Shown: positions 29,854 to 31,908 of the stretch, in pieces | Numbering within the stretch: position 1 is the first letter of the stretch | Layout of the letters: each line of letters opens with the position of its first letter | Assembly: GCA_029261855.1 (NCBI GenBank) | Contig: JAJDAN010000054.1 | Coordinates: 62,001 to 126,000 of the forward strand | From: Deltaproteobacteria bacterium | Lineage (GTDB): Bacteria > Myxococcota_A > UBA9160 > UBA4427 | Length of the DNA: 64,000 nucleotides | Reading direction: 5' to 3' | Translations under genes and position numbers: made by a program | The notes under the pieces: generated by a model | Database searches by the model: none | What the model saw: only the letters and a program-made list of their open reading frames with translations | Told to the model about the DNA's origin: nothing

Positions 29854-31320
29854 CTAGAGGACGCGCAAGGCGTCCTCTAGCGCTTCGGGCACGGCGCCTC
29901 GCACCTGCTCTTCGGCCAGCCCGGGGCCGCTCTTCACCGTTTTGCCGATCAATGAGTGGGGGGTGGACTCCACGAGGTCGACGGCGAGCAGCCCACCGGG
30001 GGGAGCCTCCCCCGGCACGTTCACGACCCGGTGGTACGGATCCCGCCCGCAGGTCTGGCCTCCGCCCTTGCGACCGCTGCGTCGCGAGGGCCCCTCGACC
30101 AGTATTTCTGTACGTGTTCCAACCCGACTGCGGTGATACGCGAGGGTCATGTCGCGCTGTACGTCCTGCAGAGCCGCCAGCCGTTCCTGGGCCTCGACCG
30201 GGTCGACGGGGCCCGGCATGTCCTGCGCGGCGGTGCCGGGGCGAGCGGAGTACTTGAAGCTGTAGCTGTCGACGAATCCGACCTCGCGCATGGCCGACAG
30301 CGTGTCCTCGAAATCTGCGCGGGTCTCGCCCGGGAAGCCGACGATCACGTCGGTCGTGATCGCGATGTCGGGCCGGCTGGCGCGCAACCGCTGCGGGATC
30401 TCGAGGTAGCGCTCCCGGGTATAGCGGCGCCGCATGGCGTCCAGGACCTTCGAGGATCCGCTCTGCATCGGCAGGTGCACGTGCGGGCAGAGGCTCTCGA
30501 GCTCACCGTGGGCTGCCACCAGGGCTTCGTCGAAGAAGAGCGGGTGCGGGCTCGTGTAGCGGATGCGATCGATCCCCGGGACGGCATCGATGCGCCGCAG
30601 GAGATCCGCGAACGCGATCGTCCCCCTCTCCGCGCCCTGGCCCCGGCGCAGGTCGTGCCGGCCGTAGGCGTTCACGGTCTGCCCGAGCAGGGTGACTTCC
30701 CGGATCCCCCGCGCGGCCAGTTCCCGGACCTCGTGCAGGATCGCATCGGCGGGGCGGCTGATCTCGCGGCCCCGGGTCGTCGGAACGATGCAGAAGCTGC
30801 AGAACATGTCGCAGCCCTCCATCACGGTGACGAAGGCGCGACCGGGGCTGTGGCCTTCGAAGGCCGCGTGCCGTTCGGGGAGGTCGAAGCGTTCGACCGA
30901 GCTGGACTCGTCGGTGCGCGACGCGCGGGTCCGCGTGACCGCAGCGGCTTCCGCCATCGCCGGGACCAGCCGGAGATTGTGCGTGCCGAACACGAAGTCG
31001 AGATGGGAGAAGCGGCGCAGCAAGCCGTCGCCCACCTGTTGCGCGACGCAGCCGCCCACGCCGAGGGCGCGTCCGGGACGCGCCACCTTCCAGTCCCGGA
31101 GCTTGCCCAGGTCGGTGTAGAGCTGATTCTCGGCCTTGTCCCGGATCGAGCAGGTATTGATCACGAGCAGGTCCGCGTCGTCGGCGTCCGTCGCCTCGGA
31201 GAGCCCCGCGTGGTAGAGCAGATTCGCGAGCTTCTCGGAGTCGTGGATGTTCATCTGACAGCCGTAGGTCACGACCTTGAAACGCCGTTCCGTCGTTTTT
31301 TCCCCGACTTCCACCTGCAA
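29854..31320 (-). CDS. miaB: tRNA-2-methylthio-N6-dimethylallyladenosine synthase
   Basis: 488 residues from a TTG at 31320, which has GGGAG 6 nt upstream; a GTG at 31314 is the alternative, and no ATG is available. The UPF0004 N-domain holds the auxiliary [4Fe-4S] cysteines: TYGCQMN, INTCSIRDKAENQ, VGGCVAQQ. The radical SAM motif is CDMFCSFC. The C-terminal TRAM domain (TRTEILVEGPSRR..., GRDPYHRVVNV) binds tRNA. It adds a methylthio group to i6A37 in tRNAs reading UNN codons. INTCSIRDKAE and the N-terminal pattern favour MiaB over RimO or MtaB. It is transcribed away from the structured RNA candidate to its right. Confidence 0.95.
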   Translation of the reverse strand: MQVEVGEKTTERRFKVVTYGCQMNIHDSEKLANLLYHAGLSEATDADDADLLVINTCSIRDKAENQLYTDLGKLRDWKVARPGRALGVGGCVAQQVGDGLLRRFSHLDFVFGTHNLRLVPAMAEAAAVTRTRASRTDESSSVERFDLPERHAAFEGHSPGRAFVTVMEGCDMFCSFCIVPTTRGREISRPADAILHEVRELAARGIREVTLLGQTVNAYGRHDLRRGQGAERGTIAFADLLRRIDAVPGIDRIRYTSPHPLFFDEALVAAHGELESLCPHVHLPMQSGSSKVLDAMRRRYTRERYLEIPQRLRASRPDIAITTDVIVGFPGETRADFEDTLSAMREVGFVDSYSFKYSARPGTAAQDMPGPVDPVEAQERLAALQDVQRDMTLAYHRSRVGTRTEILVEGPSRRSGRKGGGQTCGRDPYHRVVNVPGEAPPGGLLAVDLVESTPHSLIGKTVKSGPGLAEEQVRGAVPEALEDALRVL

Positions 31321-31443
31321 CCGACTCTCCCTCGAAGGACGCGGAACCCTACCGGATGCCGAGACTCCAGCCCAAGCCCGCCGGGAAGTCGCCCGGATCC
31401 GCGATCGGGGACAGAAAATCACTCCTCAACTCACTGATACTAC

Positions 31444-31485: not shown

Positions 31486-31513
31486 TTGACAAAATCGCGG
31501 CTACCCGCATAAT
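31486..31513 (+). promoter_or_regulatory. Strong sigma-70-type promoter
   Basis: TTGACA at 31486-31491 (perfect -35), a 16-nt spacer and CATAAT at 31508-31513 (five of six -10 matches). It is the best promoter match in the window. The predicted start is near 31520, directly before the structured RNA. Confidence 0.7.
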
Positions 31514-31519
31514 GCTCGA

Positions 31520-31670
31520 ACTGCATTTCAGCAGAGGATTCCAACAGTTCCGGAGTGGCGGTGGATTGGTCATTTCTTGCGAAATGTCCAACCTCTCACC
31601 CCCCAAAATGAGTCCACCGCCCTCCCCTGTAAAACGCCCCGCATGCAGCTCGCGGGGCGTTTTCTCTTTT
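31520..31670 (+). ncRNA. Candidate structured small RNA (about 150 nt), family unknown
   Basis: Bounded by a near-consensus promoter and an intrinsic terminator, with no open frame of interest. Folding by eye: (1) GAACTG at 31518-31523 pairs with CAGTTC at 31545-31550. (2) A 9-bp perfect stem GGCGGTGGA (31557-31565) with TCCACCGCC (31613-31621) closes a three-way junction. (3) Inside it, TTGG-T-CATTTC (31566-31576) pairs with GAAATG-T-CCAA (31581-31591) around a TTGC loop, one T-T mismatch. (4) CTCA (31595-31598) pairs with TGAG (31609-31612). (5) The terminator stem. The helices abut with no gaps on the outer strand, which is unusual by chance. It does not look like 6S RNA, tmRNA, SRP RNA or RNase P RNA. 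A CsrA-sponge role is possible but only three GGA motifs are present. Confidence 0.55.
31631..31670 (+). terminator. Intrinsic terminator of the small RNA
   Basis: AAAACGCCCCGC at 31631-31642, a 9-nt loop, and GCGGGGCGTTTT at 31652-31663: a perfect 12-bp stem followed by TCTCTTTT. A textbook Rho-independent terminator on the plus strand, and the A-rich left arm could also serve the minus strand. Confidence 0.85.
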
Positions 31671-31809: not shown

Positions 31810-31908
31810 GCTTGCGGCTTCGCCGCTCGCGAGTTTGTTGGGGCTCGCGCCTTCGGCGCTTGCGAGTTTGTTGGGGCTTGCGGCTTCGCCGCTCGCGAGT
31901 TTGTCTAC
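31810..31908. repeat. Three tandem 33-bp units each holding a C(UUCG)G hairpin
   Basis: Units at 31810-31842, 31843-31875 and 31876-31908, immediately downstream of the sulfatase-like gene stop and touching it. Units 1 and 3 contain GCGGCTTCGCCGC; unit 2 has GCGCCTTCGGCGC, where both sides of the stem changed together, so pairing is preserved. Each ends in GCGAGTTTGT. They may terminate or stabilise the mRNA 3' end. Confidence 0.7.

Follow-up and report, generated by a model that had tools for sequence, protein, structure and literature searches.

What is encoded in the gap upstream of miaB in this genome, and what might it do in the cell? The window, that is, the whole 64,000-nucleotide stretch of DNA that was analysed, carries at this point what a sequence-only reading took to be a self-contained small-RNA gene of no recognised family, with a near-consensus promoter, a perfect 9-bp outer stem closing a three-way junction, and an intrinsic terminator. 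The features of the locus are as follows:

31486..31513, plus strand: sigma-70 type promoter, TTGACA-16 nt-CATAAT
31520..31669, plus strand: predicted RNA gene, with the start inferred from the promoter and the end from the terminator
31552..31565, plus strand: 5' strand of stem P1 (GGAG-T-GGCGGTGGA), covariation in alignments A1 and A3
31568..31589, plus strand: hairpin P2 (GGTCATTTC-TTGC-GAAATGTCC), covariation
31590..31605, plus strand: invariant unpaired strand AACCTCTCACCCCCCA, the same in 70/70 aligned sequences
31593-31605, plus strand: predicted antisense segment for ftsA/ftsZ, CTCTCACCCCCCA, complementary to the ftsA/ftsZ start regions
31613..31625, plus strand: 3' strand of stem P1 (TCCACCGCC-CTCC), covariation
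31631..31669, plus strand: intrinsic terminator, 12-bp stem and T-rich tail, from the fold
29854..31335, minus strand: miaB, the divergent neighbour, with Radical_SAM and UPF0004 domains

Most of the initial description holds, and it passed the computational tests that could have refuted it. The promoter matches 11 of 12 consensus positions, against 0.1 such sites expected, and the outer stem is indeed perfect, GGCGGTGGA at 31557-31565 pairing with TCCACCGCC at 31613-31621. In the terminator, AAAACGCCCCGC (31631-31642) pairs with GCGGGGCGTTTT (31652-31663), and the T-rich tail follows. The minimum free energy of 31520-31670 is -63.7 kcal/mol, compared with -39.8 +/- 3.4 kcal/mol for 200 dinucleotide shuffles (z = -7.05), none of which reaches that stability. 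An Rfam scan of the window placed tRNAs alone above the gathering threshold; the best sub-threshold matches to the RNA gene are due to chance, and no sRNA family, the known ftsZ-targeting ones such as DicF included, reaches threshold here. The gene is a new, previously undescribed RNA family without an Rfam match, and we infer that it is transcribed. A small protein-coding gene was ruled out, as 1-2 nt core indels occur in P2 and the linker among homologues. On the 3' side of the RNA, at window positions 31811-31905, lie three near-identical units of the GCTTGCGGCTTCGCCGCTCGCGAGTTTGTTGGGG type, each a short hairpin followed by T-rich sequence.

This gene is widespread in the class to which the window belongs, apparently GTDB class UBA9160 of the Myxococcota. 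A blastn search of 98 genomes with the RNA gene gave long matches in most genomes of the class, and a covariance model built from 70 sequences found a single copy in each of 76 of the 91 class genomes and no match among about 288 genomes from the rest of the phylum; in sister classes, no RNA was found upstream of miaB. A pattern scan of 84,980 species genomes returned 58 records, mostly MAGs labelled Deltaproteobacteria, Proteobacteria or Myxococcota, and including the isolates UBA9160 and SZUA-336; our assignment of the class to UBA9160 is based on these names. In most of the 14 class genomes without a match, miaB is either missing from the assembly or truncated by a contig edge. The sole non-matching genome with a complete miaB, G037 of family f9, carries a diverged copy in the same place (L248:3188-3285), with P1 rewritten and the motif changed to ACAAUCCCCCCCCCGCGAUC. 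A suggested second copy in genome G058 was judged a chance match. To our knowledge, the group carrying this RNA has no cultured model.

The surroundings of the gene are conserved as well. miaB lies upstream of the RNA and divergent from it in all 126 loci with room for it, and on the downstream side 93 of 113 have a VWA_CoxE gene. The promoter recurs in relatives: 57 of 74 homologous loci show at least 9/12 matches within 140 nt, and 15 of the remaining 17 have it further upstream, giving 72/74 compared with 2/296 control stretches. A strict rule likewise finds the terminator in 49/74 homologous loci and in 1/296 controls. Between promoter and P1, the leader ranges from about 30 to over 300 nt among homologues. 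Two related genomes, at loci L004 and L009, share a leader hairpin (CTTCGAGTGATACTCGAAG) upstream of the RNA and have no clear promoter within 420 nt.

The part of the first description that requires revision is the fold. The conserved structure is one long stem (P1) and one hairpin (P2). With phage copies included, P1 and P2 show two-sided changes in 19 of 22 pairs, a count that leans towards the model because the alignment was fitted to it; 0 of 500 shuffles match this count, slid controls fail, and an unfitted MAFFT alignment was also used for covariation counts. Both inner hairpins of the proposed three-way junction are present in the window's minimum-energy fold. However, the second of these (CUCA 31595-31598 with UGAG 31609-31612) forms in 52% of cells and shows no covariation, since the 3' side drifts against an invariant 5' side, and the junction is therefore a local feature rather than conserved architecture. 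We also amend the first reading in that the functional part is the unpaired strand and not the compact helices. This strand, AACCUCUCACCCCCCA, is invariant in 70/70 sequences of alignment A1, one of which has a seventh C, and is predicted to be about 100% unpaired in most families.

What, then, does the open strand recognise? A gapped pattern in which ATG or GTG follows GGGGGNGAGAGG is in excess at one-base spacing, and grouping the proteins downstream of its matches revealed the same gene, ftsA, in four genomes. The complement GGGGGGUGAG(AG) lies directly before the start codons of ftsA and, where readable, of ftsZ in 11 genomes of six families, the proteins being confirmed as FtsA (TIGR01174) and FtsZ (TIGR00065). 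Complementarity at the ftsZ ribosome-binding site is found in 10 genomes with a readable ftsZ, and is weak in 2 of them, G043 and G038; the site before ftsA of G004 is weak as well. Some 55-150 nt separate the ftsA stop from the downstream ftsZ start, and the UGA within the site is therefore not a needed stop codon. Since each dcw locus was found through one of the two genes by way of the pattern, the other gene provides an independent, unselected test, comprising 10 sites, some from related genomes: ftsZ in G052, G041, G068, G036, G038 and G043, and ftsA in G012, G033, G007 and G004. These sites rank 0-20 among 635 background gene starts (taken with a simple gene finder from one genome only), and six of them rank 0 or 1. 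Accessibility-corrected energies range from -8 to -26 kcal/mol, with 13 of 14 sites beating every control window; RNAcofold dimers are uninformative here, being unable to keep P1 while the loop pairs.

In the window's own genome, roughly 1.8 of 7 Mb were read without ftsA or ftsZ turning up, and no site there that matches the full 16-mer complement with at most 2 mismatches was shown to lie ahead of either gene. No site complementary to the whole strand recurs. A Shine-Dalgarno-like seed, GGTGAGAGG-N-ATG, occurs 165 times against 82 in controls, an excess that we do not take as a target signal because Shine-Dalgarno likeness explains it. Ribosomal RNA was rejected as a partner, as the strand pairs with 16S, and with as much of 23S as was available, no better than shuffled strands do.

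Overall, we consider it likely that this gene specifies an Hfq-independent antisense sRNA covering the ribosome-binding sites of both ftsA and ftsZ, with phage copies comparable to DicF. The gene would give rise to a short, probably abundant non-coding RNA in which P1 and P2 would keep ~25 nt of strand open, with a core, CUCUCACCCCCCA, that is almost unchanged throughout the class. A duplex of about 7-14 nt would form between this core and the ftsA or ftsZ ribosome-binding site (GGGGGGUGAGAG just before AUG). As the paired stretch extends over the Shine-Dalgarno region as far as the start codon, a block of initiation is the simplest reading: pairing would most likely prevent ribosome entry and lower FtsA and FtsZ synthesis together, thus repressing rather than activating them. 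Hfq (PF17209) was not found in a search of 61 class genomes (G000-G060) in which the control search worked, and the strand-opening scaffold may therefore replace the chaperone.

The same strand is also carried by five IMG/VR phage contigs (L153, L154, L155, L171 and L207). P1 differs from that of the host in most of them, and wholly in L153 and L207, while P2 is replaced or absent; in L207 the strand is one C shorter and sits in a plain hairpin loop. Because the stems differ among phages while the strand stays, what is shared is the strand and not the scaffold. L154 and L171 are related phages, which we judge to be T4-like from the clamp and clamp-loader genes of L154, and in both the RNA immediately precedes a phrog_1574-type gene. 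L155, with its terminase and portal genes, is a tailed phage; the L207 copy sits in a replication region, and the L153 copy precedes a resolvase gene. Four phage RNAs (L155:13615-13721, L154:3133-3214, L171:1513-1599 and L153:676-748) end a short distance ahead of a co-oriented downstream gene and may therefore also act as its leader. A blastn search of phage and plasmid databases gave no homologues, and 80 loci retrieved through the gene neighbouring the L154/L171 RNA held no further copy; many viral pattern matches without stems (e.g., L152 and L156/L157-type sequences) were judged to be chance. The phage copies, with the same strand on other stems, would plausibly stop the host from dividing, in the manner of prophage DicF in E. 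coli. It is tentatively suggested, at somewhat short of even confidence, that several unrelated phage lineages have adopted the class-wide division-control strand of the host, presenting CUCUCACCCCC(C)A on self-made stems so as to silence ftsA and ftsZ in the course of infection, a convergent, DicF-like mimicry of a host riboregulator.

Other readings of the strand must be weighed against these data. The one that survives best, which overlaps with our preferred explanation and which we regard as unlikely but worth serious attention, is that the RNA acts generally as an anti-Shine-Dalgarno on many targets, ftsA and ftsZ being simply the most easily seen. Its anatomy would be like that of Yfr1 and Yfr10, where an invariant unpaired pyrimidine-rich motif is reused on other stems (PMC2190773, PMC6778093), and long complements do occur at other starts: pilC (type IV pilus) of G011 (L617:745-1953) starts right after TGGGGGGTGAGAGC, with 13 nt complementary to the RNA strand, and a 657-666 aa protein at L608/L609 (G067 and G075) has GGGGGGTGAGAGGCGCC before its ATG in both genomes, making both genes possible further targets by complementarity. 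However, at 376 gene starts of the window genome, duplexes with the strand are energetically no better than those formed by shuffled strands. It is rather improbable that the C-rich strand instead binds a protein (or another RNA) and that the ftsA/ftsZ match is a by-product of their strong G-rich ribosome-binding sites. The 16-nt invariance is longer than the pairing stretch, GGGGGG is mildly enriched at the ribosome-binding sites of gene starts in the window genome (10/635 vs 4 in controls), and genome-wide counts of the full 16-nt complement show no clear enrichment (about 83 sites vs 65 for reversed controls), all of which would fit such a role. Yet GGGGGGTGA or GGGGGTGAG is present at 0/635 background starts while the unselected ftsA/ftsZ sites rank at the top, and over 4-5.5 kb of each dcw cluster, strong sites are almost confined to the positions just ahead of these two genes.

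That the gene encodes a divergent, RNA polymerase-binding 6S-like RNA is very improbable: the strong constitutive-type promoter and the single, class-wide copy would suit it, and Rfam 6S turns up in just 2 of 31 relatives (G037 and G041), but the RNA has no RF00013 covariance-model match and no long apical stem, 6S would not need the invariant strand, and G041 carries both RNAs, so that a role as 6S substitute was rejected. Finally, a leader or regulator of miaB, suggested by the constant adjacency of the two, is hardly credible, as the RNA is divergent with its own promoter and terminator and the phage copies are located elsewhere.

We therefore return to an antisense RNA directed at ftsA and ftsZ. 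Known RNA control of ftsZ is patchy, consisting of DicF, DinR and StfZ in enterobacteria, whereas here an RNA gene appears to be tied to division control throughout a class, without Hfq and with ftsA as well as ftsZ as targets; its active strand seems to have been copied by phages. In this system, RNA-based division control as core physiology and the mimicry of a host sRNA by phages can both be put to the test.

Among known systems, DicF from the E. coli Qin prophage has been shown experimentally to pair with the ftsZ ribosome-binding site and block translation (PMC5069750), and the RNA described here shares its logic in the proposed ftsZ ribosome-binding-site pairing and the phage link. However, DicF is 53 nt long, processed, Hfq-aided and horizontally acquired, with other, metabolic targets, whereas this RNA is chromosomal, fixed across the class and transcribed, as we propose, from its own promoter, with a stem-bulge scaffold, ftsA as well as ftsZ as predicted targets, and no Hfq found. 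DinR of Klebsiella pairs with the ftsZ translation start, with an initiation block shown experimentally (PMC10907235), and StfZ of E. coli is antisense to ftsZ (PMC9628754); the former is an SOS-controlled, Hfq-dependent fragment of an mRNA 3' end and the latter is encoded in cis, unlike the separate, putatively trans-acting gene here. Pxr of Myxococcus xanthus is likewise an sRNA of the Myxococcota, in an organism without Hfq (PMC5684412), but by its description has three stem-loops and, as its neighbour, the regulator gene pxrR rather than miaB. The closest structural parallel is that of Yfr1, a lineage-wide cyanobacterial RNA with the invariant unpaired pyrimidine-rich motif ACUCCUCACAC, and Yfr10, in which an unrelated stem carries the Yfr1 motif in its loop (PMC2190773, PMC6778093). 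In Yfr1, which is 54-69 nt long and has other targets, the motif lies between two hairpins, whereas the motif of the present RNA lies inside a stem, in a class of Myxococcota and without an Rfam match; common to both is an invariant exposed motif reused on unrelated stems.
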